Source of the DNA: a virus
Strand: one strand, 5' to 3'
IMG/VR virus record: IMGVR_UViG_3300032093_000663
Location: 1 to 28,041 of that record
Length of the DNA: 28,041 nt
The position numbers and the translations under genes are program-made. Below the pieces are notes generated by a model, which saw only the letters and a list, made by a program, of their open reading frames with translations, was not told the DNA's origin and did not search any database. Position 1 is the first letter of the stretch; every line of letters begins with the position of its first letter. Positions 6,915 through 28,041 of the stretch are shown here, one piece after another.

Positions 6915-6922
6915 GATTGCCT

Positions 6923-7933
6923 ATGATTAATAAATTAGTTGGAATTATTCTTGCTACAGCTTCTATTTCAGTTGCAGCTCAAACAATTACAGCAGCAGGA
7001 GCTACTTTTCCTTATCCAATATACGCTAAATGGGCTGAAGCCTATCAAAAAGAGACTAAAATTGGATTAAATTATCAAAGTATTGGCAGTTCTGGTGGTA
7101 TTCGTCAAATTAATAATAAAACAGTAACATTTGGAGCTACAGATGCTCCGGTTAAGGGTGAAGATCTAGATAAGATGGGACAAGTTCAGTTTCCCGCAAT
7201 TATAGGCGGAACAGTTCCTATTATTAATCTTGACGGATTTCAACCGGGTGAACTTGTTATTACTGGACCCGTACTGGCTGAAGTGTTTATGGGTACTATA
7301 GTAAAGTGGAATGACCCTAAACTACAGCAACTTAACCAAACTAAAAAACTACCTGACTTAGCTATTACTGTAGTACACAGAGCTGATGGATCGGGAACTA
7401 CTTTTAATTTTACTGATTACTTAAGCGCAGTAAGCCCAGACTGGATGAGTCGTGTAGGGCGTGGCGCAGCAGTAAAGTGGCCTGCTAGTAGCAGTGTAGG
7501 TGGCAAAGGTAATGAGGGTGTAGCGGCTAATGTGCGTAGAGTACGTGGTTCTGTGGGATATGTAGAGTATGCCTATGTTAAGAAAAATAACATGACCTAC
7601 ATGAAACTACAAAACAAGGACGGTGTGTTTGTTGATCCTGATGATACTACCTTTGCTGCAGCTGCAGCTGGTGCAGATTGGTTTAGCGTACCCGGCATGG
7701 GTCTAAGTATTGTTGATCAACCTGGTAAGAATACTTGGCCAATTAGTACTGCTAGTTTTATTATCATGTACAAAGATCCACAAGATAAAAAATCCAGCCA
7801 AGAAGCTATTAAGTTTTTTGACTGGGCATTTAAACACGGCGCTAAAATGAGCGAAGAACTTGATTATGTACATCTTCCAGAGTCACTACAAGCTCAAATT
7901 AGAACCCGTGTTTGGAGTCAGATTAAGCACTAA
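6923..7933 (+). CDS. pstS: Periplasmic phosphate-binding protein PstS
   Basis: A 336-residue protein close in length to bacterial PstS. It has a signal peptide (MINKLVGIILATASISVAA, cut near residue 19) followed by the PstS landmarks: GATFPYPIYAKW, YQSIGSSGGIRQ, FGATDAP and ADGSGTT, which carry the Thr, Ser, Asp and Arg/Ser/Gly/Thr groups that hold phosphate. It would be exported to the periplasm and load phosphate onto the host PstCAB transporter. Phage pstS is an established auxiliary gene in marine cyanophages and pelagiphages, thought to sustain phosphate supply during infection. ATG 6923 is preferred over an in-frame TTG six bases upstream because TAGGA (6912-6916) is well spaced from it. 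It lies between nuclease genes in the replication operon. Confidence 0.93.
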   Translation: MINKLVGIILATASISVAAQTITAAGATFPYPIYAKWAEAYQKETKIGLNYQSIGSSGGIRQINNKTVTFGATDAPVKGEDLDKMGQVQFPAIIGGTVPIINLDGFQPGELVITGPVLAEVFMGTIVKWNDPKLQQLNQTKKLPDLAITVVHRADGSGTTFNFTDYLSAVSPDWMSRVGRGAAVKWPASSSVGGKGNEGVAANVRRVRGSVGYVEYAYVKKNNMTYMKLQNKDGVFVDPDDTTFAAAAAGADWFSVPGMGLSIVDQPGKNTWPISTASFIIMYKDPQDKKSSQEAIKFFDWAFKHGAKMSEELDYVHLPESLQAQIRTRVWSQIKH

Positions 7934-9263: not shown

Positions 9264-11225
9264 ATGACAAGCACACGAGCACAAGTAATTACAAGACGAA
9301 CTTATAATAGACCCATCAGTGATGATGGCAAACAATTTGAAACTTGGCAGGATACAGTTAGCCGAGTAATCTCACACCAAGCTTGGTTGTGGGAACGTGC
9401 CGCTGATAGACAGCTCCTACCCAATGAGTACGCAGAACTAAATCGCCTAGAACAGCTTATGCTTGAGCGTAAGGTTTCTATGAGTGGTCGTACCCTATGG
9501 TTAGGCGGCACACAGGTAGCTAAAAATCGTGAAGCGTCACAGTTTAATTGTAGCTTTACAGAAGTAGAAACTGTGTACGATGTAGTAGATGTTCTATGGC
9601 TTTTACTACAAGGTTGCGGCGTAGGCTTTAAGCCTATTATAGGCACGCTAAATGGATTCTCAAAACCTATTCAGAATATTGAAGTAGTCAGATCACAACG
9701 TACTGAAAAGGGCGGCTGTGAGCACAATGTAGAAACTTGGGACCCACAAACAAAAACTTGGCGTATTCAGGTTGGCGATAGTGCAGAAGCATGGGCTAAG
9801 AGCATTGGTAAGCTAATGGCAGGAAAATATCCTGCTGATACTCTTGTCCTAGATTTCTCCCAACTGCGTCCTGCTGGTGAAAGGTTAAAAGGCTATGGAT
9901 GGATTAGTTCGGGTGACTCGGCTATCAGTACTGCTTATGTTGCTATCGCCCGTATCCTTAATGGACGGGCAGATTCACTACTCACCAGAATGGATATCAT
10001 GGATATTGTTAATTGGCTTGGTACCATTCTGTCTAGTCGCCGAAGTGCTGAGATTGCGCTTTTTGACTATGGCCAACCGGAATGGCAAGAATTTGCAGTA
10101 GCTAAAAAAGACTGGTGGTTGCATGGCAATGCACATCGTCAGCAGTCGAACAATAGCCTAGTGTTTAATGAGAAACCTACCTACGAGCAGCTAAGCGAAA
10201 TCTTTGCAATCATGCAAGAAGCTGGCGGGTCGGAGCCAGGGTTTATTAATGCACAAGAAGCACGTCGTCGTGCACCTTGGTATAAAGGAGCAAATCCTTG
10301 TGTTGAGATTTTACTCGGAAACAAATCGTTCTGTAATCTTACAGAAACAGATATTGGAAAGTTTAAGGGCAATACCGCAGGACTTCACGAAGCTATACGG
10401 CTTGCCGCCCGAGCTAACTATCGTCAAACCTGTGTTAACCTCAAAGACGGTATACTCCAAGAAGCATGGCATCTCAACAATTACTTCTTGCGACTGTGTG
10501 GTGTAGGCCTAACTGGTATTGCTAAGCGTCCAGACATGACTGGATATGATTACGAATACCTAAAACGTACAGCCACTAGTGCAGCAATTGGTATGGCGGA
10601 TGAGCTAGGCTTGCCTCGTCCTAAAAACATTACTTGTGTTAAGCCATCGGGCACACTAAGTAAAATTATGGATACAACTGAGGGAGTACATAAACCTCTA
10701 GGCAAGTACATTTTCAACAATGTACAGTTTAGCAAGTACGATCCAGTTGTAGATAAGCTGCGTGAAGCAAACTACCGAGTATTTAATCATCCCACAGATG
10801 ATACTGGTGTGTTAGTAACCTTTCCTGTAGAATGGTCGGATGTTCCATTCCACAAACAAGATGGCAAAGAAGTTAACCTAGAAACTGCTATTGATCAGCT
10901 AGAGCGTTATAAACTAATTCAGACTAGTTGGACTCAGCAAAATACGTCAGTAACTATTAGCTACGAGCCACATGAAGTTTCAGAAATTGTGGATTGGCTA
11001 ATGAATAATTGGGACTGCTATGTTGGGGTTTCATTTATTTATAGAAGTGATCCTACAAAAACAGCCAAAGATCTTGGCTACTTATATCTACCACAAGAAG
11101 TTGTCGACGAATATACGTTTCGCACATATATTCAAGACCTAAAAGCCGTCAATATAGATAGTGCCAATAGTTTTGATGCAATCTTAGATGACGAATGTTT
11201 AACCGGCGCATGCCCAGTGAAATAA
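9264..11225 (+). CDS. nrdJ: Adenosylcobalamin-dependent ribonucleoside triphosphate reductase (class II)
   Basis: A 653-residue monomeric class II ribonucleotide reductase of the Lactobacillus RTPR type. Visible landmarks are the first redox Cys96 in FNCSF, NPCVEI (344-349) carrying the thiyl-radical Cys346 with Asn344 and Glu348, the second redox Cys357 in SFCNLTE, the VKPSGTLS loop (459-466) and the C-terminal shuttle pair ECLTGACPVK (Cys645, Cys650). It turns NTPs into dNTPs with a B12-derived radical and needs no oxygen and no small subunit. Many phages of aquatic bacteria carry it. It depends on host adenosylcobalamin and on a thioredoxin or glutaredoxin; one is encoded at 3602-3874. It is followed two bases later by a small gene and then a strong terminator. 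Confidence 0.93.
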   Translation: MTSTRAQVITRRTYNRPISDDGKQFETWQDTVSRVISHQAWLWERAADRQLLPNEYAELNRLEQLMLERKVSMSGRTLWLGGTQVAKNREASQFNCSFTEVETVYDVVDVLWLLLQGCGVGFKPIIGTLNGFSKPIQNIEVVRSQRTEKGGCEHNVETWDPQTKTWRIQVGDSAEAWAKSIGKLMAGKYPADTLVLDFSQLRPAGERLKGYGWISSGDSAISTAYVAIARILNGRADSLLTRMDIMDIVNWLGTILSSRRSAEIALFDYGQPEWQEFAVAKKDWWLHGNAHRQQSNNSLVFNEKPTYEQLSEIFAIMQEAGGSEPGFINAQEARRRAPWYKGANPCVEILLGNKSFCNLTETDIGKFKGNTAGLHEAIRLAARANYRQTCVNLKDGILQEAWHLNNYFLRLCGVGLTGIAKRPDMTGYDYEYLKRTATSAAIGMADELGLPRPKNITCVKPSGTLSKIMDTTEGVHKPLGKYIFNNVQFSKYDPVVDKLREANYRVFNHPTDDTGVLVTFPVEWSDVPFHKQDGKEVNLETAIDQLERYKLIQTSWTQQNTSVTISYEPHEVSEIVDWLMNNWDCYVGVSFIYRSDPTKTAKDLGYLYLPQEVVDEYTFRTYIQDLKAVNIDSANSFDAILDDECLTGACPVK

Positions 11226-12089: not shown

Positions 12090-12779
12090 TTAATCCTTAT
12101 ATGCTAAAATTATTTGTTTACACATTTTACTACGTACTATGTCTTGATCTAAAAATCTAATTACTTCAATACCTTCGATACCTTCTAGCCGTTTTATAGC
12201 ATCTTCTAGGCCTGAATTATTTAGATCTCGCTGGTCTGGATCACCGCTTAAAATTACTTTACAATTTTTACCTATGCGTGATAAGAGCATTTTTAGTTCA
12301 GTTTTAGTTAAGTTTTGTGCTTCATCGACTAAAACTATTGCATTATCAAATGTTGCTCCACGCATAAATCCTATAGGTCGGGGTTCTATATCTTTATTTT
12401 TAAGTGCATATTCATAGAATCCTTTACCTAAAGATCGTTGAAACACGTTATCAAATGGTTCTAAGTATGGAGCATACTTTTCCTCTAATTCACCTGGTAA
12501 AAATCCTAACCCGCGGCCAGTTTCTACATTAGGCCTGGTTAATATAATTTTATTTATGCGTCTATGAAAAAGCTCTCCTGCAGCATAGCTAGCAGCTACA
12601 AATGTTTTACCTGTACCTGCACTGCCTACTCCAAAAACTACCTCATTTTGTTTTATAGCACTTAAATATTGTTCTTGTATAAAATTAAGAGGTTTTACAT
12701 CTCTAAATCCATACTCAATTGGGTTTGATTGAGTATTGGTTTGTTGTTTACGAGCTTTTTTACCTGATCTAGTTGCCAT
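12090..12779 (-). CDS. phoH: PhoH-like ATPase
   Basis: A 229-residue P-loop protein of the PhoH family: Walker A GSAGTGKT (52-59), the PhoH-specific TRPNVETGRGLGFLPG (81-96), Walker B LVDEAQN (150-156) and SGDPDQ (178-183), the sensor-like motif. PhoH proteins resemble the SF1 helicase ATPase core; host copies are linked to phosphate starvation and RNA metabolism, and phage copies are very common in marine and freshwater phages without a settled function. The N-terminus is basic (RSGKKARKQQ). It is on the opposite strand to pstS, so the two possible phosphate-linked genes are not in one operon. The short 12780-12819 gap upstream shows no convincing promoter. Confidence 0.9.
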   Translation of the reverse strand: MATRSGKKARKQQTNTQSNPIEYGFRDVKPLNFIQEQYLSAIKQNEVVFGVGSAGTGKTFVAASYAAGELFHRRINKIILTRPNVETGRGLGFLPGELEEKYAPYLEPFDNVFQRSLGKGFYEYALKNKDIEPRPIGFMRGATFDNAIVLVDEAQNLTKTELKMLLSRIGKNCKVILSGDPDQRDLNNSGLEDAIKRLEGIEGIEVIRFLDQDIVRSKMCKQIILAYKD

Positions 12780-15814: not shown

Positions 15815-16483
15815 CTAGTTAGCAAGGGGATTATCTAGTGCCTTTTTAATCTTGTCATCTACCTCACGACGAATTGTTCGCAATTCTGCATTAGTATCAC
15901 GTTCAATTCGGTTTACGCGCTCATTTACACCTTGCACTGTACTATCAACTTGTTTTTGCATTTCACGAACACTGGTATCAGCACTACGACGTATTTCTTT
16001 TATTTCTGTATCAACTTGTCGTCGTATTTCTTTAACGTCATCGTCAACTTGTCTACGAATATTAGCCACTTCTTTTTCGGTTTCGCGCTGGGCAACTTTA
16101 GTTCCGCGCTCTACGCCTTCTAAGACAGTTTCTGTACGACGAATATCACCTTTTAAATTTTGATTAATATCTCGTGTATAGCCTACTACTTTTTCACTGT
16201 TTTCTTCTAGTTTAATTATGCGAGCTTCGTATTCACTAAAATCTGGAGCAACATAGTTTGCAATTTTCTTTTTCATGTTTTCGTAGTCTTTGTATGCTTC
16301 AAATACTCCGTACATACCCCCGACCACAGATGATACAATACCTGCAGCAATCATTAGTTTAGCAGGTGTAAAACTGTACCCACCAATACTAATAACAGTA
16401 TCTTTACTAGCATACTTTTTCATGGCAGCTTCTGCAGCTTCTACCTTTTTGTTAATGTCAACATTATCTTCTGTATTGCTCAT
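15815..16483 (-). CDS. Membrane-anchored hendecad coiled-coil protein
   Basis: A 222-residue protein: an acidic soluble start, one transmembrane helix (about 41-62, KLMIAAGIVSSVVGGMYG), then an almost wholly helical, charged domain. Residues 139-193 consist of five exact 11-residue units (VANIRRQVDDD, VKEIRRQVDTE, IKEIRRSADTS, VREMQKQVDST, VQGVNERVNRI), with hydrophobics at positions 1, 4 and 8, the hendecad pattern of straight or right-handed coiled coils. I place the start at ATG 16483, not the TTG codon before it, because GGAG is seven bases upstream. The start lies inside the end of the Cys-repeat gene (20-base overlap). The function is unknown; a periplasm-spanning or multimeric scaffold is plausible. 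Confidence 0.65.
   Translation of the reverse strand: MSNTEDNVDINKKVEAAEAAMKKYASKDTVISIGGYSFTPAKLMIAAGIVSSVVGGMYGVFEAYKDYENMKKKIANYVAPDFSEYEARIIKLEENSEKVVGYTRDINQNLKGDIRRTETVLEGVERGTKVAQRETEKEVANIRRQVDDDVKEIRRQVDTEIKEIRRSADTSVREMQKQVDSTVQGVNERVNRIERDTNAELRTIRREVDDKIKKALDNPLAN
15905..16069 (-). repeat. Five coding 11-residue (33-bp) repeats
   Basis: Five consecutive 33-bp units encode the hendecads of the coiled-coil protein. DNA copies are diverged (for example variants of CGTCGTATTTCTTT), so the repetition is kept at protein level and probably arose by old tandem duplication. Confidence 0.8.
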
Positions 16484-17912
16484 CAATCATCTCCTGGTGA
16501 AGCCGGTCGCTACGCTGTGAAAGTGCACGTTGAGCGCGCGGATTATCTGGTAGTGTACGATTACGATAAATTTCCTTGCTAGTATAAAATACAGCATCTG
16601 GTAGGTTAACTTGTTGATACTGATCAAACCCCGGTACACTACCCATTTGTGCAACTTGCTGTGCTTGTTGTTGCTGCTGTGGATCTTGCTTAGCGCGCTC
16701 CGCGCGCTGGGCTTGAGCGGCTTGGGTTCGACGTTGCTGTTGTGCTGTAGGTTGAGGTGTAATACCGGATACAGTTAGGCCTGTACCAAGTTGTGGGCTA
16801 GTATTAATTTGAGAAGTAGGACTGGTGGTACTAGTAATACTTGGCACAGTAATTGCTTGCTGCGCTTGAGGGTCTGCTATTAATACAGTTTCTGCTAGGT
16901 TATTAGTATTGGTTAAAAAATTTGATTGACTAGGGCTAGAATTAGGAGAAATATAACCGGCACACTGTGGACTACTCTGCGAATTAGATTTACACGCATC
17001 TGTTACCTGTTTTTCCTTAAAAGCGTTTGCATATCCTGGGCAACCAGAATTGTATAAAGGATTTGCTATGCATTGTTGATTGAAGTATGCCTGTTGGTAT
17101 AGCGGGCAAGATGTAGAAAAAAGGGGATTAGAAGCACATTGTTGATTTATATACGCTGATTCGTATCCGGGACACTCAGGAGAAAACAAAACATTCACCA
17201 AGCATTGTTGACTACGATATGCTTGTGCATATCCCTGACAATTTGGACTGTATAGAGAATTAATATTGCATTGAGATTGAAAATATGCTTGTTGATAGTT
17301 TGGACAGGTTGATGCATAAAGTGGATTTACAGCGCACTCATCAACCACATACATTGCATTTAAAGAAACATTTCTAACCTGCGGGCCATAATAACCCGCC
17401 CAATACCTATCATCTTTTCCACTAAAACTTACATCAAATCTATCAACAAAATCTAAATTAAATGGACTACCATAATTTCTTTTGCCACTTACAGTTTCCC
17501 ATCCATTTGTTTGATTAAGTGTATAACTATCTTTTTGTTTACTGAATCCAAATTGATCTTTTAAATCAACAGAAAAAGAAACAAATCCTCTATTAAATTC
17601 ACTATTCATGTATTGAAAAGAATAATTGTATCCATAGAGTCTTAGATGACTACCTTGTAGAGTTTCGCGTAATCTTATTTCTTGGTTAACAATTTGCTGT
17701 GTATAACCAAATAAGATTGTTTGTGTTTGAGGATTGTAAGCTGCGCGATTTCCTCCAGATGTTCCGCCTGAACTATAATTACCTGTAACAGTATTCGCCC
17801 AATTATTTTGTATTAAATTGGGTGTTGTCTGTATATCCTGAGCACTAGAAAAGAATGAGAAGAATAGCCAGGACGCCAAGCCCAGCACTAACTTTTTGCC
17901 AGAAACTTGCAT
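16464..17912 (-). CDS. Secreted protein with six cysteine repeats
   Basis: A 482-residue precursor. Residues 1-24 are a signal peptide (LVLGLASWLFFSFFSSA). Residues 25-190 look like a beta-rich domain, ending in GYYGPQVRNVSLNAMYVV. Residues 193-320 hold six units with paired cysteines exactly ten residues apart; the first five start every 22 residues (Cys 193, 215, 237, 259, 281) and the last at 307. The consensus is CxxNPLYxxxCPGYxxAYxxQQ. Residues 320-430 are low-complexity Ser/Thr/Gln, and the end is basic. Comparable repeats occur in uncharacterised phage proteins, but I know of no function. Paired cysteines suggest disulfides in the periplasm or on the virion. Shine-Dalgarno AAAGGAGAG supports ATG 17912, 68 bases inside the previous gene. 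Confidence 0.75.
   Translation of the reverse strand: MQVSGKKLVLGLASWLFFSFFSSAQDIQTTPNLIQNNWANTVTGNYSSGGTSGGNRAAYNPQTQTILFGYTQQIVNQEIRLRETLQGSHLRLYGYNYSFQYMNSEFNRGFVSFSVDLKDQFGFSKQKDSYTLNQTNGWETVSGKRNYGSPFNLDFVDRFDVSFSGKDDRYWAGYYGPQVRNVSLNAMYVVDECAVNPLYASTCPNYQQAYFQSQCNINSLYSPNCQGYAQAYRSQQCLVNVLFSPECPGYESAYINQQCASNPLFSTSCPLYQQAYFNQQCIANPLYNSGCPGYANAFKEKQVTDACKSNSQSSPQCAGYISPNSSPSQSNFLTNTNNLAETVLIADPQAQQAITVPSITSTTSPTSQINTSPQLGTGLTVSGITPQPTAQQQRRTQAAQAQRAERAKQDPQQQQQAQQVAQMGSVPGFDQYQQVNLPDAVFYTSKEIYRNRTLPDNPRAQRALSQRSDRLHQEMIDEQYRR
16962..17336 (-). repeat. Six Cys-pair repeats, 66-bp period
   Basis: This encodes the six CxxNPLYxxxCPGY units; five have an exact 66-bp spacing and the sixth is offset by 12 bases and lacks the PLY and AY parts. 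The DNA copies differ at many sites while the Cys, Pro and Tyr codons persist, indicating selection on the protein. Confidence 0.85.
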
Positions 17913-19270: not shown

Positions 19271-19936
19271 TTAGTAGTCTGTACCTGCCATATAATATCC
19301 AGTATATATAGTCCATGCCGTACCGCCCGAAGCATTGCCTACAAAAACATAGCTTTGATTTGCTGAAAAATATCCTGCAGGAGAGGGTGTAGCTAGATAT
19401 GTACTTGTAGTAGCTATGCCGGATGCGCCGCTGGTACGACCGTGAGTTCCAAATAGTATTTCTACTATAGGTAAATTACCTGTTTTTGCACTATTAAAAA
19501 ATGTAGCTTCATAAACAATACCAGGAGATCCTGCTGTTCCGCTTGTTGCTGCCGCTCCCTCATATCTTATTCTTGTATAATCAGTGCCTGAATTTCTATA
19601 GGCAACTCTTTGGTATGAATTATCTGCAGCACCTAGGTGAATTTTATGTAAGGCAGGATTACTTGCACTTAATCCACTATAAACAGTTGACCCACTACCA
19701 AAAGTTATATATGTATTAGATCCAATATAGGCCGTAGTAAAAGCATTATAGTTAAGTGAAAAAGTTGGTATAGTAACACTAACAAAACTATCATCAACAG
19801 ATGCATTTTGAATGCTTACCCATCCAGAAGGCGTCCAACTTGTTCCACCAGCACCTAAAGTGGGAGCTTTAGTACCGGATCTTGGCCAATATGGTTGGCC
19901 ACTAGCCATAAAATTATTAAAAGATATTTGATCCAT
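19271..19936 (-). CDS. Beta-rich tail or adhesin protein
   Basis: A 221-residue protein rich in Ser, Thr, Gly, Tyr and Ala, probably beta-structured, with segments AYIGSNTYITFGSG, LHKIHLGAADNSYQR and YTRIRYEGAA and no signal peptide. I have seen similar stretches in fibre-tip proteins of aquatic phages, but I cannot name a family. It starts one base after the large fibre gene stops and precedes the tail assembly chaperone-like gene, so it is most likely a virion fibre component or receptor-binding tip. Confidence 0.6.
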   Translation of the reverse strand: MDQISFNNFMASGQPYWPRSGTKAPTLGAGGTSWTPSGWVSIQNASVDDSFVSVTIPTFSLNYNAFTTAYIGSNTYITFGSGSTVYSGLSASNPALHKIHLGAADNSYQRVAYRNSGTDYTRIRYEGAAATSGTAGSPGIVYEATFFNSAKTGNLPIVEILFGTHGRTSGASGIATTSTYLATPSPAGYFSANQSYVFVGNASGGTAWTIYTGYYMAGTDY

Positions 19937-19937
19937 T

Positions 19938-22900
19938 TTAATTATCGTAGTTAGTTAAATAAGAACCGCGCCATCTACTTCCAGCATCGTCTGTAACAAA
20001 CATAAATAAGTGAGTTTTACCAGTTGTTAGTGTAGGAGCAATATTACCCGGCCATTTTACAGTTGAAGGCCAAGTAACCGTACCACTAGTGTGTGTTAGT
20101 TCAAGTGTAAATGAGTATGCAACATTAAACCCGGATGCAGCAGGTACATTACTAAATGTAAATGTGCTATCGCTACTAATAGTTCTTGTAAAGTAATTGC
20201 CTTCTCTACAATCAATATCTAATGAAGAGGTAAATCCGCTGTAGGTGTAAATTACGGCTTTTACATTCATAATAAAAGTTTCGGCTACTTGCATAGAAGA
20301 AGAACTTCCTGCACGCAAAACTACGCGATCGTTTGTACCAGATCCAGCATCTAAGAATAAATCTTGTGAAGTTAAACGATTAAATGAGTAAATCTGTGAA
20401 GATATTTCGGTGCCCGAACTATTTTTATCAGCAAATCGTATCATTCCTCCAAATCTGCTACCAACAGGTGTTAGAGTTCTTCTAATAACAATAACAGGAT
20501 AGTCAATACTACTATTAACGTTATTTTCGATTAAAAATGTTGATTGAGTACGAGTACTACCAAACATATACATGGGTATGTCTGTTGCCGTTCCGTATGC
20601 ATTATCGCTTGGGCCGCTGGCAGTATTAACTCGTAGTTTACTATTAATAAACAGGGTACCAGTCATTGTGCCGCCGGTTAGTGGTACCTTATTAGGATCA
20701 GTTGCTGTACCGGTTATATTTATACCCCAAGTACCACTAGCTCCACCACCTGCGAGGGTTGGCGAATAGTTATTATAATTTGAGCTATCAAGAACTGTAG
20801 CTTGGGTACCGCCTCCATACGAATTTTTATTTACGTATGCGGTACCATCAGACCATCTAAACTGCCAGCCATAACTATTATTATGAAATCCTGATGTATT
20901 TGAGCTTGGGTCAATCATTAGGGATATATGACCATTATTAGCAGTAAACTCTAAGCCTCGCCAACCATTACGCGTACCCTCAATTCTCCAAGCACCATAA
21001 GTACCGTTATTTGGATAAAAATGAGCACCATTATTGCTTTCATAAAAGCCATAATAACCGTTTAGGTGTACCCAGCTATTAAATCGGCCGTAATCACTTC
21101 CGCCTTGTTGAATTTGAAAACCATTACCTAATCCAAATAAACCTGCACCAGTTACATTATTGCCGCCCATAGCAATAGAACCAGTCATAGTTCCGCCGCT
21201 TAAGGGCAAGGCATAACTACTATAATTAGTAGCATCTAAAATTGCTCGCCAACTTTGCCAAGTACCACTATTACGACCACGTACTGCTAGTTGACCAGTG
21301 CGGTAATCTCCGTATATTTGATGTACCCAACTAGAACTATGTGCTTGTGAATAAATTGCACCATCGGTTTGACCAAAAAGACTTACAGAAGTTACATATC
21401 CAGTTCCGTTGTTCGTAATGTTGTCTGGTCCAGTGCCGTTACTACTATCTCCATTACGAAATTCAATACCGTCTATTTGACCAGCAGTACCAGCACTAGT
21501 TGCGTATCCTGAATTATCAGCATAACCTACATGGGTATCGGCATGTGCAGTATCCCCACTACTGTAGCCATACAACCTCCAATAACTACCAGTCCAGTAA
21601 GTTTGTACACTGTAGTCGCTGTTGTCATCGCGGCGGTATAGGCGGTAGGGGCCTGGACGAGCAGCACTTGTCCACATACCAACCTGACCAGTAATTGCAG
21701 ATGCTGCAACACTACTAACACTACCTGCACTACCAGTTATATTAATACCCCAAGTACCTGACGCTCCACCACCTGTTAGGGTTGGTGAATAGCTGTTATA
21801 ATTTCCACTGTGAAGTATAGTACGTAAAGAGCCCCAAGCAGTATTAACGCCGCTTCTTAAGTACCAATTTTCATGGGTTGAAGTAGTAGCGCCACCAATA
21901 ATCTGCCAAGCAGCATAACCATTAGACCAACCTTGCATTGTTATAGCTGAATGCCAGTCACTAACAATCTGATTAGTAAATTCAAATGTTGCTCTGTTAT
22001 CTTGATAGTCGTTTGGCGTATACTGACCTGCTCTGGTATCAATAATTTGAGCATAAGTTGCCCAACCTGCGCTACCTGCACTGCCACTTACATTTATACT
22101 CCAAGTGCCATCCGCTACGCCACGAATCTGATTCTTTACATGTGCTAGTGAGCTTTTACGACTCCACCCATCACCATTATCAGTAATAAAGTTAGCAATT
22201 GTTGGGTTTTCAACACCAGTATTAAAATTTACATGATTGGCAAATATGTAACCATTTCCATCACGACGTACGATATCGTTAGCATTTACACCAGTTGAAG
22301 CCGTAATTGTTGCACTATTAGCTTGGCTAGTAATCGTAGCGGCATTACCAGTAATATTAATACCCCAAGTTCCACTAGCTCCACCGCCTGTGAGTGTTGG
22401 TGCGTAGCTATTGTAGTTGCCGGCGTGTAGTACAGTACTACCACCCACTGTAATATTAAATCCACTAGATATGCTTAAATTATCGTCTATAGTAACTGAA
22501 CCATTAAAGTAGCTGGAACCATTATTATAAAAATCAAAACTAGTATTGTTGGAACTACCAACACCTAACTGATTAATACGCGTGTTACCTGTAACAGTAC
22601 CACCACTTAGTGGTAGTGCGTAGCTACTATAGTTGCCGGCATGTAGTACCTGATTGCCGCCTTGTTGTAGTGCAGTATCAACATTTACAGTGCCGTATCC
22701 AAGACTTATTTGCTTTTGCCAACTAGAACCATTATTAGCCCAGAAGGTAAGACCAGGATCTCCTGCATCAATAGCCCCATACGCTCTAGAACCATTAGTC
22801 CACCATACTGATGGAGTATTACCATTACCATCAAAATTTACAACTCTATTGCTGGCCCCACTTACAGCTGATAGTGTATGTGAAAATAGTGTACTAGCTG

Positions 22901-23276
22901 GACTAGTATTCCAACCACTACCAGCTCTAAAAGATCCTTGTAGCTGAACTTTTCCATTACCATAATCAATACCAGTACCAACTAGTACATTACCACTATA
23001 CTGTGCAAATTTAACTAGTCCGGTATCTAATACTTCTATGCTGGGTATGCCCGACACATCGTTTACCGAATAAATAGTTCCAGTTAGTGTATTAGTTACG
23101 CTAAATAGCTGACCGGCGCTACCCTCCAAGCTAATAGTGCCACTACTAGTAGGGTATACTCTAAGAGTAATTGTTTGCGGGCCTAGTGTGCCATTTGCCC
23201 CAACAAACTCAATTTTAGGGTCTGCAGTTTGACTCCGATTAGGAGTAATTAAAATATTTTTGTCAGACAAGGCCAT
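19938..23276 (-). CDS. Large tail fibre protein
   Basis: A 1112-residue fibre. Residues 1-115 (ILITPNRSQTADPKIEFVGA, then DVSGIPSIEVLDTG) form a conserved N-terminal module seen in many phage fibres, presumably the virion-attachment part. The shaft contains repeated connector units: LHAGNYNSY followed by PTLTGGGASGTWGINITG at about residues 295, 500 and 845, and ALPLSGGTxTG-type units near 225 and 695. The C-terminus (NYFTRTISSDSTFTFSNVP, then LTHTSGTVTWPSTVKWPG) is another common fibre ending. No enzyme motif was seen. It would form a trimer that recognises the host surface. Shine-Dalgarno TAGGA precedes ATG 23276. Confidence 0.85.
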   Translation of the reverse strand: MALSDKNILITPNRSQTADPKIEFVGANGTLGPQTITLRVYPTSSGTISLEGSAGQLFSVTNTLTGTIYSVNDVSGIPSIEVLDTGLVKFAQYSGNVLVGTGIDYGNGKVQLQGSFRAGSGWNTSPASTLFSHTLSAVSGASNRVVNFDGNGNTPSVWWTNGSRAYGAIDAGDPGLTFWANNGSSWQKQISLGYGTVNVDTALQQGGNQVLHAGNYSSYALPLSGGTVTGNTRINQLGVGSSNNTSFDFYNNGSSYFNGSVTIDDNLSISSGFNITVGGSTVLHAGNYNSYAPTLTGGGASGTWGINITGNAATITSQANSATITASTGVNANDIVRRDGNGYIFANHVNFNTGVENPTIANFITDNGDGWSRKSSLAHVKNQIRGVADGTWSINVSGSAGSAGWATYAQIIDTRAGQYTPNDYQDNRATFEFTNQIVSDWHSAITMQGWSNGYAAWQIIGGATTSTHENWYLRSGVNTAWGSLRTILHSGNYNSYSPTLTGGGASGTWGINITGSAGSVSSVAASAITGQVGMWTSAARPGPYRLYRRDDNSDYSVQTYWTGSYWRLYGYSSGDTAHADTHVGYADNSGYATSAGTAGQIDGIEFRNGDSSNGTGPDNITNNGTGYVTSVSLFGQTDGAIYSQAHSSSWVHQIYGDYRTGQLAVRGRNSGTWQSWRAILDATNYSSYALPLSGGTMTGSIAMGGNNVTGAGLFGLGNGFQIQQGGSDYGRFNSWVHLNGYYGFYESNNGAHFYPNNGTYGAWRIEGTRNGWRGLEFTANNGHISLMIDPSSNTSGFHNNSYGWQFRWSDGTAYVNKNSYGGGTQATVLDSSNYNNYSPTLAGGGASGTWGINITGTATDPNKVPLTGGTMTGTLFINSKLRVNTASGPSDNAYGTATDIPMYMFGSTRTQSTFLIENNVNSSIDYPVIVIRRTLTPVGSRFGGMIRFADKNSSGTEISSQIYSFNRLTSQDLFLDAGSGTNDRVVLRAGSSSSMQVAETFIMNVKAVIYTYSGFTSSLDIDCREGNYFTRTISSDSTFTFSNVPAASGFNVAYSFTLELTHTSGTVTWPSTVKWPGNIAPTLTTGKTHLFMFVTDDAGSRWRGSYLTNYDN
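20711..20780 (-). repeat. Fibre connector repeat, copy A
   Basis: This encodes SPTLAGGGASGTWGINITG in the large fibre (about residue 845). The nucleotide sequence is close to copies B-D, with differences mainly at third codon positions. Confidence 0.8.
21731..21805 (-). repeat. Fibre connector repeat, copy B
   Basis: This encodes SPTLTGGGASGTWGINITG at about residue 500 of the large fibre. It is nearly identical in DNA to copy D in the other fibre gene: both carry the CCACCACCTGTTAGGGTTGG run. Confidence 0.8.
22345..22420 (-). repeat. Fibre connector repeat, copy C
   Basis: This encodes APTLTGGGASGTWGINITG at about residue 295 of the large fibre; it is the most diverged of the four copies at DNA level. 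Confidence 0.8.
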
Positions 23277-23293
23277 AATTAGTTCCTATTATT

Positions 23294-24373
23294 TTATATG
23301 CCAAATCTGGCACGTTCAGCATAAAAAATTGTTTGTATCTCTGCGTCCGTTAGTACTCGGTTATACGCATACACAAATGAAAATTCTGCATCTGAGTATT
23401 CGCCATTTGTGCCTATGCCTATACCGTTAGGCCCAGCACTAGCATTAGCATTAGGTCCGGCTACTAAATTACCATTTACGTATAAGCTAGCACTATCTGT
23501 ACCGGTATTCCAAGTTGCGGCATGTATTCGCCAAGTAGTATCGCTTGCTCCTGCTGCTACTCCGCTAACCCAACCCTCTGCATAGTAATTTTCTGTAGTA
23601 GTGCCCCAGTGACCAATCAACCAGTTGTTATTTATTCCATTAACTATTCTGCCACGAGTGCCCCCAGTATATCGGGCTGCAGATACTACCGTATAACTAC
23701 TACTAGCTAAATTTAGGTTAGTAATCTGAAGATTATTGCCAGCACTATAGCTAAGTTTTCCACCGTTATTAGGCGACCAAGTCATTGTACCAAACATAGG
23801 AGCTGAGTAAGTGGCCGCAACTAAGTCTTCTAGGCCTGCTCGTTTACATTGTACATCTTCTAGCCAGATACTTATGTTACTATAGTCATATCCCTGTACT
23901 ATAAAACTTGCAGCTGTTGAGCCTGTGGTAAAATATGCCCAAGTAAAGTAAAAACCATCACCTAGGTCTACTACATTACTAGACGAAAATATACCGTACT
24001 CCGAAATCTGAGACCCACTAGAATTGTACTGTCTAATGTAAAATAAGTTAGGGTTAGGAGTATTTGTTTGCCAGCGAACTCTAGCAGTTACTATATATGG
24101 AACACTTGGAGTGCAGGCTGTAACTGAATGATTACTGTTCCACCAGTTAACTCCACCACCATTGCTATTAGTAATCGTTATGGTAAGACCAGTTTTTCCT
24201 GTTTTACTAACATACGAGCCACTAGTCCCTACTAGACCATTCCAGTTATTAAAGCTAGAGTATGTACTCTGTATTCTTTCGGGGCCAGTACCCATCATAG
24301 ATTTAATATTACTAGCATCAATGGCAGCAATTAGTCCACTTGTTACGATTTGGGGTCCGTTATATACACTCAT
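23294..24373 (-). CDS. LamG/concanavalin-like lectin tail protein 1
   Basis: A 359-residue protein: an N-terminal motif IVTSGLIAAIDASN (9-22) shared in form with the next gene, a beta-sandwich-like middle (about 85-175, VTARVRWQTN to SIWLEDVQCKRAG) resembling carbohydrate-binding modules, and a C-terminal LamG/concanavalin-type lectin fold (about 200-350) with ASLYVNGNLVAG and the usual closing VYAYNRVLTDAEIQTIFYA. Such domains bind sugars, so this is probably a virion adhesin recognising host polysaccharide. Its start overlaps the stop of lectin gene 2 by four bases (ATGA). It is not an obvious depolymerase, as no catalytic motif is visible. Confidence 0.78.
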   Translation of the reverse strand: MSVYNGPQIVTSGLIAAIDASNIKSMMGTGPERIQSTYSSFNNWNGLVGTSGSYVSKTGKTGLTITITNSNGGGVNWWNSNHSVTACTPSVPYIVTARVRWQTNTPNPNLFYIRQYNSSGSQISEYGIFSSSNVVDLGDGFYFTWAYFTTGSTAASFIVQGYDYSNISIWLEDVQCKRAGLEDLVAATYSAPMFGTMTWSPNNGGKLSYSAGNNLQITNLNLASSSYTVVSAARYTGGTRGRIVNGINNNWLIGHWGTTTENYYAEGWVSGVAAGASDTTWRIHAATWNTGTDSASLYVNGNLVAGPNANASAGPNGIGIGTNGEYSDAEFSFVYAYNRVLTDAEIQTIFYAERARFGI

Positions 24374-25614
24374 AGTCCGTATATCCCCCGTTGTGCAGCA
24401 AAATTCTGCGCTACTTCATTAGCAGATAGTGGTCTATTATATATTTTAACTGTAGGTATGGTAGTGTTAGAATATACAGTACCATCAGTCCATCTGCCTA
24501 TTCTTACTAATGGTTGAGTTGCTGTCGGCATATTGCCTGAATATGTATTATTCAAGCTTCCATTTATGTAAAGCTTTGTATCTGTACTGCCATTTCGTAC
24601 AACAGCAGCATGGTAGTATATACCTTGAGTAATTGTAGAACCTCCTAGAAGAGTATAGCCTCCTCCTGTTGAGGGTCTAGTGGCGTATAAAATTTGATTT
24701 TGACTGCCTCCATGCCCCCCACCATAATCAACCACAATCATATTAGCACTTCCTCCAGTGGCATCCGTATCAACAATAACATTACCATAAGTTGCGTTAG
24801 AAGGTGCACCGTTTACTTTAAACCAGACTTCCATAGTCCATGCCCCTGTACCAGTAAGTCCGGAGGATATTACTGAATCTATGTAATCATCCACACCATC
24901 AAATTTAAAAGTGCCATCATTATTATATGTCAAACTAGTTGCAGTAATTGTATTACCACCAACTAGATCTCGTATAGCTTGTGTATTAGATCTTGTGCCA
25001 TTTACAAACGGATTATATCGCACATCGCCACGAAATTCAAACATGGGATTTTTCATTAGGATAAACCCACGACTAGCCATGTAAGCGTTACCACAACCTC
25101 CGGGATATAAGAACATAGCTTGCGTACCTGATCCACTGGTGGGTCCAGAATATCCGCGTATGGTTTGCCACTTGCCCATTATGCCGTTTCCGCCAGCACC
25201 GGTACCACCACCTAAAGCACTGCCACCATAATTTTCTAAAACTACTAGAGTACTGTCTGTTGGATAGTCTGACGCATCTGGGCTTATATAGTAATCAACC
25301 GAGTAACAAACATACTGTCCACTTGCAATTGCTGCACTATTACCGTGATAATGACAACCGTTTCCACCAAGATTGTATCTGTAAACAACATCAGTTGGTT
25401 TTATTGTGTAACCACCATATGTGCCACTATAAACTCTTTGAAATGTTCCTGTGCCATTTACATTAAATGAAACATTATTATTAGAGTCATAAGGATTTGG
25501 ACAAATAAACTGATTTGTTACAGGTTCGCCTTTCCATGATTTTTCAGTGTTGTACATATCATAGTAAAAGCTTAGTCCATTTGTAACAATTCCAGGGGAG
25601 TGTTGTAGACTCAT
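24370..25614 (-). CDS. LamG/concanavalin-like lectin tail protein 2
   Basis: A 414-residue protein with the same plan as lectin 1: N-terminal IVTNGLSFYYDMYN (9-22), a beta-rich middle (about 40-190), a linker with NPFVNGTRSNTQAIRDLVGG and a C-terminal LamG-type domain (about 235-405) with WTMEVWFKVNG, TKLYINGSLNN and VKIYNRPLSANEVAQNFAA. Both ends match lectin 1 while the middles differ strongly, as expected of paralogues with diverged specificity. It starts one base after the stop of the small Cys4 protein gene. It is probably displayed on the tail as a sugar-binding adhesin. Confidence 0.78.
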   Translation of the reverse strand: MSLQHSPGIVTNGLSFYYDMYNTEKSWKGEPVTNQFICPNPYDSNNNVSFNVNGTGTFQRVYSGTYGGYTIKPTDVVYRYNLGGNGCHYHGNSAAIASGQYVCYSVDYYISPDASDYPTDSTLVVLENYGGSALGGGTGAGGNGIMGKWQTIRGYSGPTSGSGTQAMFLYPGGCGNAYMASRGFILMKNPMFEFRGDVRYNPFVNGTRSNTQAIRDLVGGNTITATSLTYNNDGTFKFDGVDDYIDSVISSGLTGTGAWTMEVWFKVNGAPSNATYGNVIVDTDATGGSANMIVVDYGGGHGGSQNQILYATRPSTGGGYTLLGGSTITQGIYYHAAVVRNGSTDTKLYINGSLNNTYSGNMPTATQPLVRIGRWTDGTVYSNTTIPTVKIYNRPLSANEVAQNFAAQRGIYGL

Positions 25615-25615
25615 A

Positions 25616-25792
25616 TTACCACTTACCTATAGGACAAGTTTTAAATGAAAACATTGTTAGGGCTGATATAGGACACGCACACTTAGTACAATGTGCATTT
25701 TGATTATTTTCACAACCGGAACAAATTTCTATTCTTTTTAATTTTTCTTTAGGCAAGTTATGCAAGTCTGGATCGGTATAATTTTCAGTCAT
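25616..25792 (-). CDS. 58-residue putative zinc-binding protein
   Basis: A short frame of 58 codons plus stop that fills the gap between 25614 and 25792. It is highly charged at first (MTENYTDPDLHNLPKEKLKR), then has CSGC (24-27), CTKCAC (35-40) and ends KTCPIGKW with Cys53. Two CxxC pairs plus CPxGKW is the layout of a tiny zinc-binding family that I know from many phages near tail genes, function unknown. The start at 25792 overlaps the upstream stop by four bases (ATGA) and one base separates its stop from lectin gene 2, so the operon geometry strongly supports it as a real gene. Confidence 0.8.
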   Translation of the reverse strand: MTENYTDPDLHNLPKEKLKRIEICSGCENNQNAHCTKCACPISALTMFSFKTCPIGKW

Positions 25793-25992
25793 ATAAATCT
25801 CTCTACTTGAACTACCTGTATATCAGGAAATTGTCTTATTTGAGCTTCCCAATCATCAAAGTATTGTTTGTTTCTGTTTTCAGGATGCAATACCTGCGTG
25901 TTTTGCCACAAAACATTGCCTGCTAAATCCTCAACAATTTGGGTCCAAGTAGTTTCAGTATCTAAGATTTTTAATTTTACTAGTGTTTTCAT
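25789..25992 (-). CDS. Small hypothetical tail-operon protein
   Basis: A 67-residue protein (MKTLVKLKILDTETTWTQIV at the start, QVVQVERFI at the end) with predicted beta strands and no Cys or membrane segment. It shares ATGA overlaps with both neighbours, the fibrinogen-like gene upstream and the Cys4 gene downstream, so all three are likely translated together. The family is not recognised. It may be a fibre assembly factor for the adjacent adhesin; this is inferred from position only. Confidence 0.6.
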   Translation of the reverse strand: MKTLVKLKILDTETTWTQIVEDLAGNVLWQNTQVLHPENRNKQYFDDWEAQIRQFPDIQVVQVERFI

Positions 25993-26690
25993 TTTATGTA
26001 TACTGCTCCGTATTGATGAGTATCACTGCCTGAGCTATCCCAATAAGGACCGTTATCATAACCAAAATAATTTCCGCTCCAACATGCACCGTACCACCAA
26101 GGATTATTTCCATAAAAAGACGAGCAATTTGAACCACCATACGCATCTTGGTCAACATCGTATGTAGTTAAATTAAAACTGTTACCAGCATGATAATTAT
26201 AAAATCCAGGACTTCCAGTACCCGTTTCATCGCTAATTGCTGTGGCCCCAATCATCCCCCAACGACTACTAAATCCGTCAAATCTCCAGCGATAACGTTT
26301 TGTATGTGTACCATTTAGCTGAGTGCCGTTTGTACCGGCTACAAATTGTACTACTGTTACTTTATTTGCAGTAACTCTACCACTTAATAGCGACCAAAAT
26401 ACAGGAGCTATCCAAACATTATAATCAGCTAAACTACCTAATTTTGAACCTGCCGGAACAGCTACTCCACCTGTGCGAAAATTACAGTTAGTGGTTGCAT
26501 CCACATAAGTTAAGTTTTGCATACCGCCAGTACCCCAGCGGTTTGCTATAACTAAGCACCAGCCACCACCGTCATAGTCTTGATTTACATAAGTATGACA
26601 AGGCCCTGCACTAGTGTTGATTATATACCAGCCAGATGGTCCAACTATTTCGGAAACATTATTATATACTCCATTATAATAAACTGCCAA
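25989..26690 (-). CDS. Fibrinogen-like (FReD) domain tail adhesin
   Basis: A 233-residue protein that reads as one fibrinogen-related domain. Matches to the eukaryotic fold are VNQDYDGGGWCLV (35-47; compare FDGGGWTLI), a calcium-loop-like YDVDQD (177-182), the following Cys189, and WWYGACWSGNYFG (198-210; compare WWYxxCxxSNLNG of ficolins and fibrinogen gamma). The order and spacing of calcium loop, Cys and WWY-C fit the domain's C-terminal subdomain, which in ficolins and tachylectins binds acetylated sugars. There is no signal peptide; its place between fibre genes suggests a virion protein recognising host surface glycans. It is one base from the fibre gene upstream and overlaps the small gene downstream by four. 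The call is by pattern only. Confidence 0.72.
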   Translation of the reverse strand: MAVYYNGVYNNVSEIVGPSGWYIINTSAGPCHTYVNQDYDGGGWCLVIANRWGTGGMQNLTYVDATTNCNFRTGGVAVPAGSKLGSLADYNVWIAPVFWSLLSGRVTANKVTVVQFVAGTNGTQLNGTHTKRYRWRFDGFSSRWGMIGATAISDETGTGSPGFYNYHAGNSFNLTTYDVDQDAYGGSNCSSFYGNNPWWYGACWSGNYFGYDNGPYWDSSGSDTHQYGAVYIK

Positions 26691-26691
26691 G

Positions 26692-28041
26692 TTATTCCTC
26701 CACTATTAGTTTGTCCACATCACAGCGTTCTGCTTGTACAAAGTAGTAGCAGTCTATGTCACTAGTCCAAGCTCCGTCTATGTCAACCCACACGCAGTTA
26801 TCCCCAACTTCACGAACATATAGTTGCTGTGGTTTGCCGCGGGGGGTAAGCTGTACGGTTATACTATCCGGGTCTACTAATTTAGTCCAATATTCTGGTA
26901 GTTGAATACAATCTGTACCCTGCAATCTGCCACGAACATAAACACCATTTTCTGGACCCTCTAAGCTCCCGTATCTGAGCTTTTTGTTGGGTTTGGTTGG
27001 GTGTGGGATAAGAAATGACTTAGTAAGAGCCGTAAGTCCACCATTAGGTAAATTTAAGGATCCTGCGTTTGACAACGACATCCTAGTAACACCATCAAAC
27101 TGAAATTCTAAGCCTGTTTCAGCTCCGCGTGCATTGATATAGTGTGTTGCACCATCTGCATTAAGATCAAGAGAGTCCCAATCTGCCCCACCATTTTGAA
27201 CTCGTAAAATATTTTGAGCAATAAAACTACCGGTAGTCATGTAGTCGCCAGTACCAGCAGTTTTACCGGTTAAACTATCAAAAGAGTGTAAATAGCTAGT
27301 ATAGTTACCGGCATGTAATGCAATATGTGCACCACTACCCATTCGTATTGCACCATTGGTGTAGTAGTTAATATAAGTATCGCGATCTGAAGCCGAACTG
27401 TCTAGGTGAAGATTGCCATTAGTGGTAACTACACTTGCACGACCCGTTCCACCCCAACCATTGCCTCCTACACGCAGAGTTGATGCCCAAGTACTATTAG
27501 GTCCAAAATCAATATATCCATTACCAGAAATTGTACCGCCAGTTAGTGGTAGTGCATAGCTTGAATAGTTGCTGGCATGTAGTATCTGATTACCACTTAG
27601 TTTTACACTAGTTGTATTAAAATTAAGTGAAGTTGTTGTATCTGCATAAAAACCAAGTAAGGTACCATAAGCAGAGTTATTTGAGGAATAAAATCCTCCG
27701 CTTTCATATGCATAGTAAGAGCCATCGACTAGAGTATACCCTCGACCACCGTTTGACAGTAAAACAAACTCAGCCCCACCAGTCATTGACACGCCATTTT
27801 CGCGTGTAAACCCATTAGATCCTAAATCTCCAAGCCATGAACCAGATTGATACCATAATGCTGGTATGCTTGTTATGCCAGACCAGGGAACACTACCAGC
27901 ACTACCAGCACTACCAGTAATACTAATACCCCAAGTACCTGATGCTCCACCACCTGTTAGGGTTGGTGAATAGGTGTTATAGTTGCCGGCATGAAGTACC
28001 GTATTACCTGCAACTTGAACTGTGGTAATACTTCCTCTAAA
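26692..28041 (-). CDS. Tail fibre protein, N-terminus beyond the window
   Basis: The frame stays open from the stop at 26692 to the right edge (449 codons here). An internal GTG at 27792 is not the true start: the sequence upstream of it (HAGNYNTY, then SPTLTGGGASGTWGISITG) is fibre shaft like that of the large fibre. The visible part has further LHAGNYxSY and ALPLTGGTISG units. The C-terminus, HPTKPNKKLRYGSLEGPENG, then VYVRGRLQGTD, LPEYWTKL and ITVQLTPRG, is an ending that I recognise from T4-like and other phage fibres; its exact role (tip or chaperone) is not known to me. It is followed one base later by the fibrinogen-like gene, perhaps its tip partner. Confidence 0.82.
   Translation of the reverse strand, partial: FRGSITTVQVAGNTVLHAGNYNTYSPTLTGGGASGTWGISITGSAGSAGSVPWSGITSIPALWYQSGSWLGDLGSNGFTRENGVSMTGGAEFVLLSNGGRGYTLVDGSYYAYESGGFYSSNNSAYGTLLGFYADTTTSLNFNTTSVKLSGNQILHASNYSSYALPLTGGTISGNGYIDFGPNSTWASTLRVGGNGWGGTGRASVVTTNGNLHLDSSASDRDTYINYYTNGAIRMGSGAHIALHAGNYTSYLHSFDSLTGKTAGTGDYMTTGSFIAQNILRVQNGGADWDSLDLNADGATHYINARGAETGLEFQFDGVTRMSLSNAGSLNLPNGGLTALTKSFLIPHPTKPNKKLRYGSLEGPENGVYVRGRLQGTDCIQLPEYWTKLVDPDSITVQLTPRGKPQQLYVREVGDNCVWVDIDGAWTSDIDCYYFVQAERCDVDKLIVEE
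27911..27990 (-). repeat. Fibre connector repeat, copy D
   Basis: This encodes SPTLTGGGASGTWGISITG in the truncated fibre. It is nearly identical at DNA level to copy B at 21731-21805 in the large fibre gene, giving homology between two genes about 6 kb apart. Confidence 0.8.

Follow-up and report, generated by a model that had tools for sequence, protein, structure and literature searches.

The window analysed here is the whole 28,041-nucleotide stretch of a 28-kb record from an uncultured virus, and our statements on virion, tip and ligand are inferences. On the minus strand, a stand-alone fibrinogen-related domain (FReD) protein is encoded within a cluster of fibre-type and LamG-type genes (Table 1). 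Three motifs, DGGGW (residues 40–44), YDVDQD (177–182) and WWYGACWSGNYFG (198–210), stand in fibrinogen-domain order in its product, as the initial annotation had described. The TTG codon is probably the correct start, given that relatives carry ATG in the same column and that a GGAGG lies shortly upstream, within the 3′ end of the fibre-like gene, the stop of which is 1 nt ahead of the TTG. At the FReD stop, the gene for a 67-residue protein begins through an ATGA overlap (junction AAAATGAAA), and the 58-residue ORF that overlaps this gene in turn is a candidate member of the same module; in one relative (L159), a comparable Cys-rich ORF follows a LamG-type ORF.

Table 1 Features of the window, with the evidence for each assignment
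Feature	Coordinates	Strand	Evidence or remark
Stand-alone FReD protein	25989..26690	(-)	233 aa, TTG start
Small partner protein	25789..25992	(-)	67 aa; overlaps FReD stop by 4 nt
Zinc-ribbon-like protein	25616..25792	(-)	58 aa; two CxxC pairs; overlaps 67-aa gene by 4 nt
Upstream fibre-like protein	26692..27792	(-)	PHROG 17490, 1.6e-36; weak tail-fibre match
LamG (concanavalin A-like) adhesin-type protein	24370..25614	(-)	PF13385, 8.1e-18
Second protein of LamG/fibre cluster	23294..24373	(-)	Similar to PHROG 24074
Large tail fibre	19938..23276	(-)	1112 aa; C-terminus matches PHROG tail fiber, 1.5e-15
Repeat-containing protein	16464..17912	(-)	482 aa
PhoH	12090..12779		
Ribonucleoside-triphosphate reductase	9264..11225	(+)	Class II type by relatives' annotation
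Phosphate-binding PstS-like protein	6917..7933	(+)	PHROG 5385, 5.5e-65

Elsewhere in the window, the PstS-like protein (up to ~56% identity to proteobacterial PstS on plasmids) and the PhoH gene together suggest phosphate scavenging in infection, and the nearest relative of the reductase (70%) belongs to a Caudoviricetes record from Manatee Spring. The 482-residue protein begins with what resembles a signal peptide, contains about five repeats of ~22 residues that include Cys (CNINSLYSPNCQGYAQAY...), and finds no match in PHROG.

Fold and relatives of the FReD protein

Searched by itself against Pfam, PHROGs, PDB sequences and phage records, the window protein returns no significant match; its match to NCBIfam NF040941 is sub-threshold (E 5.7e-4; 19.9 bits against a cut-off of 30). 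As it lies under every family cut-off, the case for the fold rests on its relatives. Scans of IMG/VR for the family gave successively 2, 30 and 77 loci, with more than 40 distinct relatives, and a second genome scan gave 9 loci, the majority distant and from bacterial metagenome-assembled genomes (MAGs); distant relatives on such contigs (L126–L133) come from Bacteroidales, Myxococcales and others. When two family members were compared by tblastn with 50,697 phage records, the module was found in none, and its presence in IMG/VR phage contigs therefore indicates that culture-based work has largely missed it.

A profile of 18 members matches tenascin, ficolin, angiopoietin-like proteins, fibrinogen gamma and techylectin-5A (best 2.6e-10). 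Extended to 46 sequences and compared with 177,635 PDB sequences, the profile gives 45 matches at E ≤ 0.01 (best 1.9e-13), all of them fibrinogen-domain proteins, and this exclusivity argues that the motif pattern is not due to chance. Weak PDB matches to pterin dehydratase are absent from the 46-sequence list at this threshold, and we attribute them to chance. Conversely, the Pfam fibrinogen profile PF00147 matches 37 of the 46 members at E ≤ 0.01, with some scores above the curated cut-off of 22 bits (29.7 for L034, 29.6 for L069, 29.6 for L159 and 34.3 for L031). L034 is 63% identical to the window protein and exceeds the cut-off over the greater part of the domain (15–184 of 221 positions), so that membership in PF00147 comes through relatives, with the window protein itself unmatched. 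Alignment by hhalign of the family with FIBCD1, MFAP4 and ficolin-2 gives a probability of 98.6%.

The AlphaFold2 model built with the 46 sequences (mean pLDDT 90.9, pTM 0.91) supersedes one from three sequences (pLDDT 30.8), and its top Foldseek match in the PDB is M-ficolin (E 1.4e-10, probability 1.00, TM 0.62/0.68). Against known structures, the model reaches TM-scores of 0.62–0.68 at an r.m.s.d. of 4–5 Å, which marks it as a distant fold relative. The initial assignment to the fibrinogen/ficolin domain is thus borne out by profile, family and predicted structure alike: the model resembles M-ficolin rather than a different fold, and the profile does find the fibrinogen family. On the basis of these comparisons and the predicted structure, we regard the domain identity of the product as settled.

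Putative calcium site and ligand pocket

We counted conservation in the alignment of the 46 sequences and took residue equivalences to FIBCD1 from the hhalign profile alignment. Asp178, Asp180 and Asp182 are each kept in 45 members, and the latter two align with Asp393 and Asp395 of FIBCD1, which are calcium ligands in that protein (residue roles from PMC3908420 and PMC10825690). The calcium dependence put forward initially is therefore plausible, given that both ligand-equivalent Asp residues are so widely retained. Cys189 and Cys203, the counterpart of FIBCD1 Cys401–Cys414, are invariant (46/46), and the pocket tyrosines Tyr193 (equivalent to FIBCD1 Tyr405) and Tyr211 (Tyr431) occur in 43 and 40 members, respectively. 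Trp44 of the GGGW block is found in 44 of the 46. The family lacks the first disulfide of animal FReDs (Tyr34-Val35 in place of Tyr-Cys in the window protein), and no Cys of the N-terminal half is conserved among the 46 members; this disulfide, formed by the Cys of the YCD motif, is typical of animal FReDs and is not demanded by the PF00147 profile. The part bearing the putative site is the best-conserved stretch of the protein, with a mean frequency of the commonest residue of 0.67–0.73 from residue 161 onward versus 0.24–0.55 earlier. Conservation of the pocket in such diverse phages suggests a common ligand chemistry across the family.

What this chemistry might be is less straightforward. 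In FIBCD1, the acetyl oxygen is bound by the backbone NH of the cis Cys and of the following residue, and the acetamide N is held by Tyr431 (PMC3908420, PMC10825690). As the equivalent Cys203 and Tyr211 are retained along with Tyr193, an N-acetyl ligand, as initially proposed, is plausible. However, the pocket His415 of FIBCD1 is replaced by Trp204 in all 46 members and the pocket-floor Ala432 by Asp212 in the window protein, so that N-acetyl binding cannot be deduced from the animal proteins. An alternative, to which we assign slightly less than an even chance, is a tail adhesin whose pocket takes a neutral sugar or another group, much as in H-ficolin (ficolin-3), where a Tyr replaces the pocket His (the sequence there reads WWYASCY) and structures include galactose and fucose as ligands. 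The invariant Trp204 is in keeping with this alternative, as is position 212, where Gln, Ala, Ser and Asp predominate, given the argument of the FIBCD1 authors that Ala alone is able to close the acetyl pocket (PMC3908420). Weighing against it, besides the retained Cys203 and Tyr211, is the presence of Ala in 14 of the 46 members at a position that is itself uncertain because the alignment near 212 spans an indel.

Gene context and a proposed tail adhesin

The best phage matches of the upstream fibre-like protein are annotated as putative tail fiber-like protein, and its last ~110 residues form a conserved fibre C-terminal domain (KSFLIPHPTKPNKKLRYG..., KSFLIPHPTKPNKKLRYGSLEGPE...) that is common to phages of Synechococcus, Flavobacterium and other hosts and often lies directly before adhesin-type genes, including, in other phages, those for FReD or LamG proteins; perhaps it acts as a docking platform. 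Many relatives likewise have a fibre or LamG-type gene directly or closely upstream of the FReD, and several of the upstream proteins end in the same domain (HPTK...). In Flavobacterium phage immuto, LamG genes, with products annotated as structural, come directly after the gene for a tail fiber-like protein with this domain, an arrangement suggesting that one slot can hold either a FReD or a LamG protein. FReDs are also exchanged onto fibre N-termini: the first ~100 residues of the 1112-residue fibre in the window correspond to the N-terminus fused to the FReD in L069 (4e-14) and L088 (7e-12), and the FReD of L087 is joined to an N-terminus for which 192 cyanophage records have a match, among them that of S-CAM4, which is annotated as a virion structural protein. 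On the basis of the fibre cluster and this exchange, the FReD gene is probably a tail gene encoding a receptor-binding protein. The tail assignment and receptor-binding role proposed initially thus gain support from gene context and fusions, and the position at the tip is proposed by analogy.

Synechococcus phage S-CAM4 also encodes, at L134:3001–3855, a protein annotated as virion structural, the C-terminal part of which (SSGLYWIK...MYVDTTQDGGGY) is possibly a diverged FReD; the protein has no match in Pfam.

The coupling to the 67-residue protein, noted from the outset, extends well beyond the window. A small ORF of 62–133 codons lies on the 3′ side of the FReD in 41 of 45 non-redundant relatives, with its start no more than about 12 nt from the stop (for two of the 41, the listed start is an earlier TTG at −30), and the ATGA overlap is common among them. 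The window-type small protein can be aligned across about two dozen loci; cyanophage-like FReD loci have a different small protein in that place, and homology of the two kinds is unsupported (hhalign probability 0.1%). A search with the window-type protein alone returned 29 loci, 27 of them in contigs already known for their FReD; the other two were L159, in which a FReD just upstream was found only then, and L168, which is cut at the contig end. Apart from that cut contig, the small protein occurs only beside FReD genes, and it has no match among INPHARED phage records. We infer that it is a dedicated factor for folding, loading or capping. The paired small gene is a clear target in the search for a fibre-assembly or capping factor.

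The computed fold, conserved calcium and pocket residues, operon layout, small-gene linkage and fusions to fibre N-termini are best explained, and we think quite probably, by a receptor-binding tail adhesin with a dedicated small partner. The gene order (that is, a fibre with the conserved C-terminal domain, the FReD after 1 nt and the partner with a 4-nt overlap) fits such an adhesin. In this model, the FReD protein would be produced together with the fibre, folded, loaded or capped by the 67-residue protein, and docked on the tip of the fibre by its N-terminus, which is short and poorly ordered; it would thus be present in the virion. Its C-terminal subdomain would hold one calcium ion through Asp180 and Asp182, ordering the Cys189–Cys203 loop, which in turn would display an aromatic pocket (Tyr193, Trp204 and Tyr211) that binds a small surface group of the host, perhaps the N-acetyl of a bacterial glycan. 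A bolder extension, which we offer tentatively and consider rather unlikely, is that FReD and small partner make up a tail-tip module, exchangeable among tailed phages of a widespread but uncultured branch, and that this module recognises one conserved glycan chemistry, the same that ficolins of animals read on bacteria.

Other roles can be envisioned for the same fold. The protein might be an accessory lectin of the virion, anchoring the particle not to a host receptor but to surfaces, algae or mucus-like polymers; this would be in line with the several lectin-like (LamG) proteins of the cluster and with the tandem FReD genes of some phages (L031 and L112, with the extra copy just upstream), but seems improbable to us, as many loci have the FReD behind a tail-fibre gene or fused to one. 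Less probable still is a non-virion protein, secreted or exposed on the cell surface during infection (for example, to exclude other phages): the 67-residue gene could then be a regulator, yet the fusions and the 1-nt spacing from the fibre gene point to the virion, and the protein, as we read its sequence, begins almost directly with the domain and has no evident signal peptide. A resemblance of fold without common descent, to which the lack of significant matches for the window protein alone might point, is already contradicted by a profile that matches FReDs exclusively and by close relatives that exceed the Pfam cut-off, and we give it almost no weight.

Relation to known systems

A literature search for phage FReD adhesins or their function found nothing; nearest is a 'fibrinogen-like coiled coil protein' among the host-recognition genes of marine phages (PMC3909814), which may correspond to a different part of fibrinogen. 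FReDs are already annotated in phages, although these are distant. In the isolated Pseudomonas phage PaBG, gp217 ('putative fibrinogen domain-like containing protein'; 223 residues) also stands alone and adjoins a putative adhesin, but only its N-terminal GGxW half matches, and the calcium and WWYGACW block are lacking. Q58LR8 of Prochlorococcus phage P-SSM4, which like other phage proteins is labelled 'Fibrinogen C-terminal domain-containing', is a structural match in a library of viral models (E 3e-5) with a TM-score of only 0.47, and the family profile finds nothing in the P-SSM4 genome; a PF00147 match there at 19288–19518 lies inside gp5 and is probably due to chance. The bacterial YCDxxxxGGGW domain of NF040941 resembles the N-terminal half, being matched by 17 of 18 members, but spans only 46 residues, and the window protein falls under its cut-off.

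The T-even gp38 tip adhesins are encoded by a separate gene just after that of the trimeric fibre. It is by likeness to this arrangement that we propose a position at the fibre tip for the FReD protein; the folds are unrelated.

With the animal FReD lectins (ficolins, FIBCD1 and techylectin-5A), the phage protein shares the overall fold, the GGGW block, the DxD calcium loop, the Cys–Cys loop with WWY and the two pocket tyrosines. It differs from them in the missing first disulfide, the Trp and Asp in place of pocket His and pocket-floor Ala, a shorter loop ahead of Tyr211 and its setting in a phage tail; nor does its chain include a collagen or coiled-coil stalk. This is the fold with which ficolins recognise microbes. 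Should phages also find bacteria by it, the surface groups read by the two sides may be the same, and the phage proteins could be used as small probes for bacterial glycans. Compared with the FReDs annotated in phages before, what is new at this locus, as judged from the alignments, is a complete FReD with its putative calcium loop, an invariant Trp in the predicted pocket and a coupled small gene.
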